DNA of 64,000 nt from positions 1 to 64,000 of the forward strand of contig JAPLAA010000054.1 in NCBI GenBank assembly GCA_026393475.1, in the 5' to 3' direction. This document shows, piece by piece, positions 36,715 to 41,370 of this stretch; within the stretch, counting starts at the first letter, position 1, and each line of letters begins with the position of its first letter. A program made the position numbers and the translations under genes. The stretch comes from Actinomycetota bacterium. Lineage in GTDB: Bacteria > Actinomycetota > Acidimicrobiia > Acidimicrobiales > Ilumatobacteraceae. The notes under the pieces are model-generated. The model was given only the letters and a program-made list of their open reading frames with translations. It was not told the origin of the DNA and made no database searches.

Positions 36715-37179
36715 ATGCAGACCGGAGAACTCACTTACGGGGCAGCGCCTGAGATCGTCGCCGAGCTCGTGTCGATGGCATGGAGCACCTTCGTCGGCAG
36801 CGAACTCGGCCAGATCGACGACGTCGTCTCCACGGAGAACGTGATGTGCTCGTCGATCTCGATCAACGGCCCGTGGAGCGCAACGCTGTTGCTGTTCTGC
36901 GATGTGCAGGTCGCGTTCGCCAGCACCGCCTCGGTGTTGGGGATGGAGCCGCACGAGGTGGAGAAGGCAGACGTCCTCGACATCATGGGCGAGCTGGCCA
37001 ACATCATCGGCGGCAACCTGAAGGGCGCCGTGAGCGACGACAACGCAGCGTGGAAGCTCTCGCTGCCCGTCGTCTCCGAAGGCATGCAGACGGTGCCGGG
37101 CAGCAAGCTCACCACCGAACTCGCCTTCATCGGACCGTGGGGCACCATCGGGTGCCAGGTCCGCGAACACGCGGTCTGA
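36715..37179 (+). CDS. CheX-type chemotaxis phosphatase
   Basis: 154 aa, with GAGGAGG before the ATG. The helix ADVLDIMGELANIIGGNLKG carries the E-x-x-N phosphatase motif (E and N in GELAN) of the CheC/CheX/FliY family, which dephosphorylates CheY-P. Flanking segments (VSTENVMCSSISINGPWSAT, LTTELAFIGPWGTIGCQV) fit the CheX beta-sheet. A single E-x-x-N helix indicates CheX rather than CheC. It is divergent from the VanY-like gene and is the last motility gene in the window. Confidence 0.85.
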   Translation: MQTGELTYGAAPEIVAELVSMAWSTFVGSELGQIDDVVSTENVMCSSISINGPWSATLLLFCDVQVAFASTASVLGMEPHEVEKADVLDIMGELANIIGGNLKGAVSDDNAAWKLSLPVVSEGMQTVPGSKLTTELAFIGPWGTIGCQVREHAV

Positions 37180-37233
37180 CCGCACCTCACCCCCTCTGGT
37201 CGCGCCCTGGTCGCGCCCTGGTCGCGCCCGTCG

Positions 37234-38328
37234 TCAACCGACGACGAGGTCGCGCCAGATCCCGGACGGGATCGTCGCCACGCCGGTGGCCTGCACGTCG
37301 CGGGCGAGCTGTGCATCCGAGGTGACCACCACCGCGTGCACCGAGCCGAGCGCCCCGCGGGGAGCCGCCCGCGCCAGATCGCGCACGGTCCGGCCATCGT
37401 CGACGACCATGACCTCGGGGTTGACGCGCCCGAGCGCCGTGCCGTGCGCGCCGTGCGGGAACACGACCGTGATCCGCGTGCCGAAGGTGTGTGCGGCGGT
37501 CGCGCAGAGCTCGAGGCACCGGCGAATCGCGACGTTGCGATCGGCATCGGCCCACAGCGCCATGACCGTGTCGCCGTCGACGAACACCCGCGACCCACCC
37601 GCTGACGGCTCGTCCGACGCCGGTGGACCGCTCCCGTTCACCATCGACGCGCCGACCGCTGCGGTGCCGCCTGCGGTGGTGCCGCTCGCGACCCCGGCGA
37701 GCACGCCGTCCTCCCGTCGTGGCGGCCCGCTCCCACCCGCTCCTCGTGGCGGGTCGCCGTCGACCCGGCTGTCCTCGTCCTCGCTGTCCTCGTCCTCGCT
37801 GTCCTCGTCCTCGGGCCAGAGGTGCACGAACACGAACAGCGACACCGTGGCGGCGATGAACCACCACGTGCCCATGTAGCGCACGAGCAGCCCCACCTTC
37901 GGGAGATGTACGCGGGCGACCCCGGCGACGTCGTCGGTGGTGATGTCGAACTGGTCGGGCTGGTCGCGGTTGTCGCCCTGGATCACGAGCGTGCCGTCGA
38001 GGCGCACATCGACGAAGCGGTGCATGATCAGCTTGCCCTTGCCGGCTCCGTCGGGCACCGCGTAGACGACGACGTCGCCGATCTCGAGCTCGTCGACCGA
38101 ACGAGCGATGACGATGTCGCCCGTGTGGAAGTTCGGCAGCATCGAGTTGCCCTTCACGATCACGTACGTCGTGTCGCCGCCCCACTGCGACGGCCAGGCG
38201 ACGAAGCCCACGACCGCGATGGCGATCCACCCCAGGAGCTGCCCGGCGCGCCGGCGCCACGACGGCGCCGACCGCGTCGGGTCGGCGTCGATCGGCGGGC
38301 GCGAGCCACTGCCCGGCGACCCGATCAC
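37234..38328 (-). CDS. SipW-type signal peptidase I fused to a NYN/PIN-like domain
   Basis: 364 aa from a GTG overlapping the upstream stop. First membrane helix at residues 29-45; catalytic Ser62 in GNSMLPNFHTGD; His103 in LIMHRF, the His replacing the bacterial general-base Lys as in SipW/ER-type peptidases; then QGDNRDQPD; second membrane helix YMGTWWFIAATVSLFVFVHL. An acidic (EDEDS)n linker at 172-188 is followed by a cytoplasmic domain (247-364): SRVFVDGDTVMALWADADRN, VMVVDDGRTVRDLA, HAVVVTSDAQLARDVQ. That order of Asp motifs resembles NYN/YacP-type PIN folds. Substrates are probably the two secreted proteins encoded just upstream. The fusion is unusual. Confidence 0.85.
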   Translation of the reverse strand: MIGSPGSGSRPPIDADPTRSAPSWRRRAGQLLGWIAIAVVGFVAWPSQWGGDTTYVIVKGNSMLPNFHTGDIVIARSVDELEIGDVVVYAVPDGAGKGKLIMHRFVDVRLDGTLVIQGDNRDQPDQFDITTDDVAGVARVHLPKVGLLVRYMGTWWFIAATVSLFVFVHLWPEDEDSEDEDSEDEDSRVDGDPPRGAGGSGPPRREDGVLAGVASGTTAGGTAAVGASMVNGSGPPASDEPSAGGSRVFVDGDTVMALWADADRNVAIRRCLELCATAAHTFGTRITVVFPHGAHGTALGRVNPEVMVVDDGRTVRDLARAAPRGALGSVHAVVVTSDAQLARDVQATGVATIPSGIWRDLVVG

Positions 38329-39155
38329 GGGGTCGCCGGTGGGGACACCCTCAGATCGTCGGCGGTCACGGAGGAGTTGGATGCGGAGAGTCCAGCACCT
38401 GTGGCGGCTCCGAGGGTGGCAACCGTCGCTCCGTCGAGCACATGGCTCACCACCAGCGCCCCGTCGAGGTGCACCGTGGCCGTCGCGCCGTCACGGGTGA
38501 GCGCCACCACGACCGAGGGCGCGACGGTCACCGGCGACGACGCCAGGACCGTCGTCACGCCACCGTCGACCAGGAGCAGATCGACCCGGGGGACGACGTC
38601 GCCCACCACCACCGCGGCGAGGTAGGTGTCGGCACCGTCGTGGTCGAGCACCACGCCGGTCTCGTGCACGCCGACGTCGGCGCCGGCGAGCTCGACCGAC
38701 ACCGTGGCCGACGACAGGGCGGTGCCCAGGGTTGCGATCGCCGGCGTCGCGGCGGTCGCGGACACCCGTCCTCCGCTCACGGTCCACGTGCCGGCGTGCA
38801 CCGTCCACACGAGGCCGCTGCACCGTGCGGCATCCGACACGGTGCGGCCTGCCAGGTCGCCGACGGTGAGATCGAAGTTGTCGCAGGTCGCGAGCGCCGG
38901 CGCGCCGGCCGTCGCAGCACGATCGAACGCGACGAGTGGATCGCTCGACAACCCGCCGAGGCTCGTCGCACCGGCCGCGGCGATCGCCCGACCGCCGAGG
39001 ACACACGTGGCCGCGAGGGCGATCGTGAGGCCCAGTTGCCGAACGCGTCGGGCGCTTCTGGCGCTTCTGGCGCTTCTGGCACTGCTGGCGCTACTGGCGC
39101 ATCGCGCCCGCCGGCTGTGGGTCTGGGCTCGATCGTTCCGACGCACGGCCGGCAC
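38325..39155 (-). CDS. Secreted protein with SipW-type signal and LamG-like beta domain
   Basis: About 276 aa, start uncertain (GTG at 39155 or 39146; no clear ribosome site). An Arg/Ser/Ala repeat leads to a hydrophobic signal (LGLTIALAATCVLGGRAIAA) ending ATSLGGLSSD, the motif typical of SipW-dependent precursors. The mature part reads as a concanavalin-like sandwich (WTVHAGTWTVSGGRVSATAA, DTYLAAVVVGDVVPRVDLLL, TVHLDGALVVSHVLDGATVA, VTADDLRV). It overlaps the signal peptidase gene (GTGA), so processing by that enzyme is likely. Two cysteines (ATCDNFD, ARCSGLVW) could form a disulfide. Function is unknown. Confidence 0.7.
   Translation of the reverse strand: MPAVRRNDRAQTHSRRARCASSASSARSARSARSARRVRQLGLTIALAATCVLGGRAIAAAGATSLGGLSSDPLVAFDRAATAGAPALATCDNFDLTVGDLAGRTVSDAARCSGLVWTVHAGTWTVSGGRVSATAATPAIATLGTALSSATVSVELAGADVGVHETGVVLDHDGADTYLAAVVVGDVVPRVDLLLVDGGVTTVLASSPVTVAPSVVVALTRDGATATVHLDGALVVSHVLDGATVATLGAATGAGLSASNSSVTADDLRVSPPATP
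39051..39095 (+). repeat. Five 9-bp repeats near the start of the LamG-like gene
   Basis: The unit GGCGCTTCT occurs three times perfectly and twice with changes. On the minus strand it encodes Ser-Ala-Arg repeats in front of the signal peptide, extending the cytoplasmic n-region. Confidence 0.85.
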
Positions 39156-39160
39156 CGGGA

Positions 39161-39601
39161 TCAGGCGATGACGACTGCGATGTTCAGCACGAGCGCAGCG
39201 CTCACGTCGATACCGCCGTTGGAGGTGAGGTCGATGACGAAGTCGTCGGTCGCCGCGTCGCCATCGACGTCGGCGAGGGTCGGCACGACCATGTCGTTCG
39301 TGGTGGTGAGGTTCGCCGGACCGACGCCGTCGAGCGCGACACGGGCGAGTTCGCCGACGCAGACAGCGTTCACGTTGAGCAGCTCGACAGCCGTGACCTC
39401 GAACAGCTGGGTGGTCGCGTTGTACGCCGTGGCGTACGAGACGTCGATGCCGTCGGTGTCGCAGCCGGCCACGACGGCCGTCTCGGCGCCGAGGGTCTCG
39501 GTGTTCAACCCGCCGAGGGTCGCGGCAGAGGCACTCACCAATGCGGCAGCGATGACCGCGCCGAGGACGGCGCCGGACTTCGACTTCAACTTCAACTTCA
39601 T
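39161..39601 (-). CDS. SipW-dependent secreted protein (TasA/CalY-like class)
   Basis: 146 aa from the ATG at 39601. A Lys-rich n-region (MKLKLKSKSG) precedes a short hydrophobic stretch (AVLGAVIAAALVSASAATLGG) with the LGGL motif of SipW substrates. The mature part is small and acidic with two cysteines (VVAGCDTDGID, NVNAVCVGELARVAL) and beta-rich. TasA/CalY proteins form biofilm fibres in Bacillus; this protein shares the signal type but I cannot show homology of the mature domain. It lies immediately upstream of the LamG-like gene and the signal peptidase, forming a three-gene unit. Confidence 0.72.
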   Translation of the reverse strand: MKLKLKSKSGAVLGAVIAAALVSASAATLGGLNTETLGAETAVVAGCDTDGIDVSYATAYNATTQLFEVTAVELLNVNAVCVGELARVALDGVGPANLTTTNDMVVPTLADVDGDAATDDFVIDLTSNGGIDVSAALVLNIAVVIA

Positions 39602-39834
39602 CTGCCGCTGCCTTCCCTGACTCGTGCACTCCGACTCGTACGAGTCGGACGCGTCGGCTGACATGCCGGGATCGTGACCCCGTCTTCACGAGGTATTGAT
39701 CCGTTCTTGTCGGGAGTGACCGTCGGGACGCGGCGTGATCACGCCACCCTTTCCCCGGGAATCACCCGTACATCCCCCGCGGGTGACACCCGCGACGCGA
39801 TGACGTCAGGAACGATGAGGCGGGTGGGGTCGGC

Positions 39835-40482
39835 TCAGCGGCCGACGAGGTGCATCCACCCGCGGCACGACAACACCCGGGCCCCGTGGGCCTCGGCCAC
39901 GCGTGCGGCGGCGGGATCATCGGTCACGAAGAGCAGGGGCAACGCAGGGTCGACCGGGGCGATGAGCTCCCAGAGCACGTCGCCCATCGATCGACCCGGC
40001 GGCACCGTGCGCACGTCGACCCGCTCGCGCTGCGGCAGGTCGCGGGCGCCTTCGCCGAACACGACCGCCACCGGGCTGGCGAACCGGGCGGCCACACGGG
40101 CCGTGGCGTCCACGCTCCAGGGCCGCGACTTCGCAAACCCGGCACCGGGCCATGCGGCCGCTGCGAGGCTGTCGCCGTCGACGAACACGTTGGGCACGGC
40201 GCTCCGCCAGCCGAGCGGTCGGGTGACCGGCACGAACGCCCAGTGCTGCGACCGTCGCACCATCAGCGCCGGATGGGCCGCCGACTTGGGCGGGCGCGGC
40301 CGGGGGGTGAGCAGAGCGAGCGCGAGACCTGCCGGCACCATCGCGACGAGCCACCACGGCCCCACCGTCGATCGCAGCCAGTCGCGCTCGACGTACGCCA
40401 AGGCGATCGAGGCACCGAGCACCGCGCAGCCGACCAGGACGAACAGGGTGCGGGCGACCGAGCGGCGTCGGTCGTCAGGCAC
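39835..40482 (-). CDS. Membrane-anchored NYN/PIN-like domain protein
   Basis: 215 aa from a GTG preceded by GGGGAGG. Two membrane helices (residues 11-30 and 42-60), then a cytoplasmic domain from residue 98: PNVFVDGDSLAAAAWPG, VAVVFGEGARDLP, RTVPPGRSMGDVLWELI, LLFVTDDPAAARVAEAHGAR. The domain lines up throughout with the C-terminal domain of the signal peptidase at 37,234 (VFVDGD, VVTSDAQLA), so they are paralogous modules. PIN/NYN folds are usually metal-dependent nucleases; several Asp residues are kept, but activity is unproven. Upstream lies a block of 9-bp repeats (about 40,500-40,545) and the divergent NarL-type gene. Confidence 0.7.
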   Translation of the reverse strand: MPDDRRRSVARTLFVLVGCAVLGASIALAYVERDWLRSTVGPWWLVAMVPAGLALALLTPRPRPPKSAAHPALMVRRSQHWAFVPVTRPLGWRSAVPNVFVDGDSLAAAAWPGAGFAKSRPWSVDATARVAARFASPVAVVFGEGARDLPQRERVDVRTVPPGRSMGDVLWELIAPVDPALPLLFVTDDPAAARVAEAHGARVLSCRGWMHLVGR

Positions 40483-40722
40483 GACCCCGCGGGCCTCCCC
40501 ACCGACCGGACCGACAGGACCGACCGGACCGACCGGACCATCGGGAGGCGGCGCGCCGGGCGCGACCGGACGCGCCGTCGCGGGACGCGGGCGTTGTATC
40601 TGTTCGACGGTGGAGTCCAGCAGTTCGATGTCCCTAGTCCAGCATCAACGGCACCCGAGGACGCGGCAATCGCGAGCGAGTGCCCGCAGGCTCAGGTGCA
40701 TCGGGACGTAGGATCGCCGACG

Positions 40723-41370
40723 GTGGACGAACCCTTGATCGACGTGCTGATCGTCGAAGACCACGACATGGTGGCGCAGGCGCTCTCGTCTGCCCTGTCG
40801 GCGACCGGGTGGTTCCGCGTCGGTGGGTGCATGCGCACCCGTGCCGAGGCGATGCACGCCATCACCGCCCGTCCGCCCGACGTGGTGGTGCTCGACCTGC
40901 GCCTCGCCGACGGCGACGACACCACCTCGTTCATCCCCGACATCCTGGCCGCGGCACCCGACGCGAAGGTGCTGATCGTCAGTGCCTGGGGCGACGACTG
41001 GTCGGTGTCGCGGGCGGTCGAGGCCGGCTGCCACGGCTACCTGTTGAAGGAGCAGGGCCTCGACGATCTGGTCGACGGCATCCGTGCGGTGGCCCGCGGC
41101 GAGGCCACCTTCGCCCCGTCGGTGCTCAGCCGGGTGCTCAAGCTCCTCCGCCCGGGCACGGTCACCACCGAGACGCTCACCGCCCGCGAGACCGAGGTGC
41201 TGCGCCGCCTCGCCGACGGCCTCACCACCGAGCAGATCGCGGCCGATCTGTACGTGAGCGTCAACACGGTGCGCAACCACGTCAACAACATCATCCGCAA
41301 GCTGAACGTGCACTCGCGGCTCGAGGCCGTGAGCTACGCGATCCGCAACGGTCTCATCCGCGTCGGCTGA
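40723..41370 (+). CDS. NarL/FixJ family response regulator
   Basis: 215 aa from a GTG. Receiver domain: acidic pair in IVEDHD, phospho-acceptor Asp58 in VVVLDLRLADGDD, and Lys109 in GYLLKE. The C-terminal LuxR-type HTH is LTARETEVLRRLADGLTTEQ, IAADLYVSVNTVRNHVNNII. It should bind DNA as a dimer after phosphorylation. No histidine kinase is adjacent, so its partner is unknown. The stop codon region is copied three more times downstream, giving four in-frame TGA codons 12 bases apart. Confidence 0.93.
   Translation: MDEPLIDVLIVEDHDMVAQALSSALSATGWFRVGGCMRTRAEAMHAITARPPDVVVLDLRLADGDDTTSFIPDILAAAPDAKVLIVSAWGDDWSVSRAVEAGCHGYLLKEQGLDDLVDGIRAVARGEATFAPSVLSRVLKLLRPGTVTTETLTARETEVLRRLADGLTTEQIAADLYVSVNTVRNHVNNIIRKLNVHSRLEAVSYAIRNGLIRVG

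Follow-up and report, generated by a model that had tools for sequence, protein, structure and literature searches.

The window, meaning the whole stretch of DNA analyzed (64,000 nucleotides), comes from a 4.49 Mb actinobacterial assembly (G000) and contains a compact group of four genes, all on the minus strand, which lies between a response regulator gene and a CheX gene. The group encodes a SipW-type signal peptidase with a C-terminal pseudo-NYN domain (P0001), a LamG-like protein, a TasA-like protein and a second, membrane-anchored pseudo-NYN protein (P0002). The features of the locus are as follows.

36715-37179, plus strand: CheX (Pfam CheX, 3e-13), the convergent flanking gene, used as a marker for locus history
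37234..38328, minus strand: P0001, SipW-type signal peptidase with putative C-terminal pseudo-NYN domain, 364 aa, GTG start
37804..38256, minus strand: P0001 signal peptidase core, residues 25-175 (TM1 28-46, Ser62, His103, GDN 118-120, TM2 152-170)
37600..37803, minus strand: P0001 cytoplasmic linker, acidic and Gly-rich, residues 176-243
37234..37599, minus strand: P0001 putative pseudo-NYN domain, residues 244-364
38325..39041, minus strand: LamG-like exported protein and putative SipW substrate, signal region ending in ATSLGGL, uncertain start codon
39161..39601, minus strand: TasA-like small exported protein, signal ASAATLGGL, putative SipW substrate
39835..40482, minus strand: P0002, membrane-anchored putative pseudo-NYN protein, 215 aa (TM 13-31 and 40-58, NYN 98-215)
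40680-41370, plus strand: response regulator, named from reading the sequence

Beyond CheX lie VanY and then flagellin genes, the latter also named from reading the sequence. The start of the P0001 gene overlaps the upstream LamG-like gene by 4 nt (GTGA), which suggests translational coupling of the two genes, and promoter and terminator scans of the locus gave no result. Short direct repeats occur at three places: three exact 11-bp copies (CTGGTCGCGCC) at 37196-37229, in the gap where the SipW-NYN gene and CheX converge; 5.6 copies of a 9-bp unit (GGCGCTTCT) at 39051-39100, directly before the hydrophobic signal encoded by the LamG-like gene, whose start codon is unclear; and 4.3 copies of another 9-bp unit (ACCGACCGG) at 40501-40539, directly upstream of the P0002 start codon.

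The signal peptidase and the exported proteins

P0001 passes the threshold of the archaeal/ER-type signal peptidase I family TIGR02228 (58.1 bits, cut-off 51.85) and retains the catalytic residues of the enzyme, namely Ser62 (GNSMLP), His103 (MHR) and the acid of the GDN motif at 118-120. It resembles Bacillus subtilis SipW, encoded in the tapA-sipW-tasA operon, in being an ER-type signal peptidase placed beside small secreted proteins, but differs from it in falling well below the Bacillus SipW equivalog NF046067 (30 bits, cut-off 190), in bearing a predicted folded cytoplasmic domain, in belonging to an actinobacterial cassette and in having putative substrates of the LGGL type. P0001 and P0002 each have a pair of hydrophobic helices with basic residues on their flanks. 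In P0001, the basic residues that precede TM1 and the polar linker that follows TM2 suggest that both ends are cytoplasmic, and under the positive-inside rule the NYN parts of both proteins would face the cytoplasm, as the initial annotation had proposed. The linker contains three exact 15-bp repeats, encoding (EDEDS)x3, at 37768-37813, and its length varies between the species represented by G000 and by a second genome, G001. The window genome also contains a second, more distant SipW-like gene (G000:C41:4344-4715, minus strand; L050, L052) with 36% identity, in which the NYN tail is unmatched.

The two exported proteins encoded between P0001 and P0002 share an LGGL signal motif. The LamG-like protein matches Laminin_G_3 weakly (E 0.11), and the TasA-like protein, which is 90% identical in G001, matches none of the curated TasA families and only a CotA-like one (E 0.02). 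The cassette of TasA-like, LamG-like and SipW genes recurs at many loci in Acidimicrobiia, in the family and in the class, where SipW occurs without the NYN tail; its partners adjoining SipW in these relatives are a small protein (ASxxLGGL...CDTDG) and often also a LamG-like one (LGGL...CDxF). Since so many relatives carry the cassette without the tail, it is wider in distribution, and presumably older, than the fusion. The export of the two proteins, their LGGL signals and the homologous pairs beside SipW in many relatives make them likely candidate SipW substrates, which the neighboring peptidase would cleave, in agreement with their earlier assignment.

Identity and active site of the NYN-like domain

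The window contains the coding sequence for VFVDGD at exactly two places, one per NYN gene, with zero occurrences expected by chance; this count, together with full-length homology, led us to reject a chance motif match. The genome also encodes its own YacP-like NYN protein, a 458-aa coiled-coil frame with intact catalytic motifs (PF05991, 57 bits), to which residues 243-362 of P0001 match at 32% identity, and identity of the tail to most housekeeping NYN copies is 29-34%. Neither the tail nor P0002 matches Pfam PF05991 itself, for which 19 of the 21 alignment members give matches at E <= 10 (best 1.3e-21), and searching the PDB sequences with the isolated tail returned no match. Profile-profile comparison by hhalign, with 15 housekeeping NYN members as target, recovered the relationship over approximately 120 columns for both the tail (98.8% probability, E 1e-16) and the P0002 domain (98.5%, E 3e-15), and aligned the two with each other (97.3%, E 2e-11).

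Structural models were generated using AlphaFold2. For the tail (pLDDT 83, pTM 0.80), the best PDB match is Rae1/YacP (5mq9; E 1.1e-4, Z 14.3, 1.8 A over 109 residues), and for P0002 (pLDDT 81, mostly above 88 in the domain blocks) the top hit among solved structures is again Rae1 (E 7e-7). The tail is thus predicted from the model to adopt a PIN-like Rossmann fold and is a homologue of the YacP/Rae1 NYN domain (PF05991, PDB 5MQ8/5MQ9), with which it shares full-length sequence homology and the predicted fold; unlike that domain, it is fused to a signal peptidase, has the FDG Asp, the first Asp of ADD and the Tyr-Asn pair replaced, and lies below Pfam detection. The proposed fusion of an NYN/PIN-like domain to a SipW-type peptidase is therefore borne out by the TIGR02228 score, the profile comparison and a single reading frame in a second species, as is the nearby membrane-bound paralogue, identified as the two-helix protein P0002. 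Searches of an open full-text library returned no paper that describes a signal peptidase bearing an NYN or PIN domain.

To define the active site, 21 housekeeping NYN copies were compared with five variants, comprising two SipW tails and three membrane proteins. The DGYN, FDG, ADD and T[NSD]D-type motifs are present in all 21 housekeeping copies. In the case of the P0001 tail, the motifs VDGYN, VVFDG, G-x-x-ADD and VTND are replaced by VDGDT, VVFPHG, GRTVRD and VTSD, respectively. The same pattern extends to every variant (5/5): the first motif reads VD[GA]D[TSA], so that the Tyr-Asn of VDGYN is gone, the FDG Asp is absent, the first Asp of ADD has become Arg or Gly while the second acid stays Asp or Glu, and T[SD]D is kept. 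Rae1 D81 aligns with the Asp position lost in the variants, which therefore keep two of the invariant catalytic aspartates (D7, D81 and D104 of Rae1 by alignment). Structural work on NYN domains describes three aspartates as absolutely conserved, the lost position corresponding to D426 of MARF1 and D118 of the B. fragilis NYN protein (PMC11346440), and MARF1 mutated at D426 and D427 is impaired in target mRNA degradation (PMC6294520). Given the loss of this residue and of the FDG Asp, the invariance of the position among NYN domains and the MARF1 phenotype, we infer that the variant domains have lost normal nuclease activity. Some metal binding or activity could nevertheless persist, since the Asp of VDG and the TSD/TDD motif are kept and a new Asp stands two residues after the first. 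A catalytic NYN with the full acid set was rejected, as acids are missing in all five variants. The motifs initially read in both proteins thus hold for VFVDGD and for TSD/TDD, the acids being only partly conserved; likewise, the PIN/NYN fold stands, and the metal-binding acids conserved among homologues are partly lost in 5/5 variants.

Distribution, origin and selection

The SipW-NYN fusion occurs in two of the five genomes of the genus, both from uncultured actinobacteria (G000 and G001), and in G001, the second species, it is one uninterrupted reading frame. A survey of other genomes, as the initial annotation had suggested, retrieved it from this second species only: the fusion was found in no other of the 222 family genomes (best nine candidates per genome scored), nor in samples of approximately 395 class and 396 phylum genomes (best five candidates per genome scored), a scoring depth at which a weak tail could be missed. 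Direct reading of approximately 28 further SipW tails likewise revealed no NYN domain. A widespread fusion was not recovered: beyond these two species, no match among the candidates scored in the family, class and phylum joins the SipW core to an NYN tail. An assembly artefact was rejected because G001 has the same fusion and synteny. The fusion is real and lineage-restricted, and its NYN domain is degenerate.

The CheX marker allows the locus to be compared across the genus. In G002, CheX is the immediate neighbor of the response regulator, and the DNA between them holds nothing recognizable; in G004, CheX is accompanied by a P0002 orthologue and the cassette is absent; in G000 and G001, the cassette lies between P0002 and CheX. 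The presence of P0002 in G004 without the cassette indicates that P0002 is independent of the SipW fusion. In the tree, the tails form one group with the P0002-type domains, with support of 100/95, or 96/86 without the active-site columns; the tree program warns of long branches, and when either group is removed the other has no one clearly supported position. A common origin of the tail and the P0002 domain is likely from these sequences and would suit local duplication and fusion, an origin left unproven by the long branches.

Between G000 and G001, identity is 84% in the peptidase core and 60-64% in the tail, and the P0002 orthologues of G001 and G004 are 93% and 54% identical to that of the window. 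The dN/dS ratios (Nei-Gojobori, G000 versus G001), approximate because they derive from one species pair, are lowest for P0002 (0.08), followed by the peptidase core (~0.26), the tail (~0.46) and the linker (~0.66), consistent with moderate purifying selection on the tail and a near-neutral linker. P0002 is accordingly far more conserved between species than its SipW-linked paralogue. The altered pocket of the tail (VDGD, FPHG, TVR, TSD) is conserved between the two SipW tails at 14 of 16 positions, versus 64 of 107 in the rest of the tail (one-sided Fisher p 0.026). With a conserved pocket and a constrained dN/dS, the altered active site is, as judged from these alignments, not the outcome of decay alone.

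Possible roles of the pseudo-NYN domains

We favor, with a probability of roughly 0.5, a reading in which the pseudo-NYN is a binding or scaffolding module carried by a dedicated SipW/ER-type signal peptidase. The peptidase part would mature the two LGGL-signal proteins encoded directly upstream, and the pseudo-NYN, of YacP/Rae1 descent, would act on its flexible linker at the inner face of the membrane. Binding or scaffolding is the most likely function because the metal site is partly lost and the altered pocket is nevertheless conserved; the non-catalytic domain that the initial annotation had offered as its alternative is likewise the better reading, given the lost catalytic residues. Its most probable partner would be another NYN domain, either that of the adjacent P0002 or that of the cell's intact YacP-like protein, followed by RNA or the ribosome; this partner and any regulatory effect are conjectural, and the comparison covers two SipW-NYN tails.

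A doubtful but conceivable alternative, based on analogy, is that the pseudo-NYNs recruit the cell's intact coiled-coil NYN to the membrane or complete its nuclease there, forming a composite site that would bring about local decay of the mRNAs for exported proteins. In the SMG5-SMG6 pair, the inactive PIN of SMG5 completes the active paralogous PIN of SMG6 by donating an Asp to it (PMC12923823); here the genome also encodes an intact NYN protein, and conserved acids are kept in two pseudo-NYN copies. That precedent, in which a degenerate PIN-like domain likewise accompanies an intact paralogue, is eukaryotic, soluble and without a peptidase and serves as a mechanistic analogy only. A broader version, in which the two membrane-bound pseudo-NYNs would assemble with one another or join the intact NYN in a composite RNase at the secretion site and couple SipW processing of the matrix-like proteins to decay or localization of their mRNAs, is improbable. 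The tail might also be a recent by-product of the fusion of a duplicated NYN domain to SipW, drifting and with hardly any function, as its narrow distribution, its fast divergence relative to P0002, the weak purifying selection on it and the near-neutral linker would allow; an intact frame in two species, conservation of the pocket above background and a confidently predicted fold speak against this, and we consider it rather unlikely. It is very unlikely that the tail has remained a working endoribonuclease, with its metal site rearranged and its targets being mRNAs close to the membrane. Although two of the three core aspartates and the second acid of ADD are kept throughout and VDGD brings a new Asp, every variant has Arg or Gly at the equivalent of Rae1 D81 and MARF1 D426, the FDG Asp is gone, and the MARF1 double mutant is impaired; the proposed coupling of an active RNase to precursor processing is thus unsupported.

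The fusion bears on both protein families. B. subtilis SipW has been reported as bifunctional (PMC4238804), with a second role independent of its peptidase activity (PMC4238804, PMC5817204), and a SipW with a recognizable folded cytoplasmic domain makes a dual role of this kind testable through a defined part. Meanwhile, the NYN family gains membrane-tethered, catalytically degenerate members. In related genera, the cytoplasmic tails of five SipW proteins (L056, L057, L058, L061, L065) end in a common AEAWLREQL-like motif, which suggests that the tails of SipW proteins are often functional in this group.
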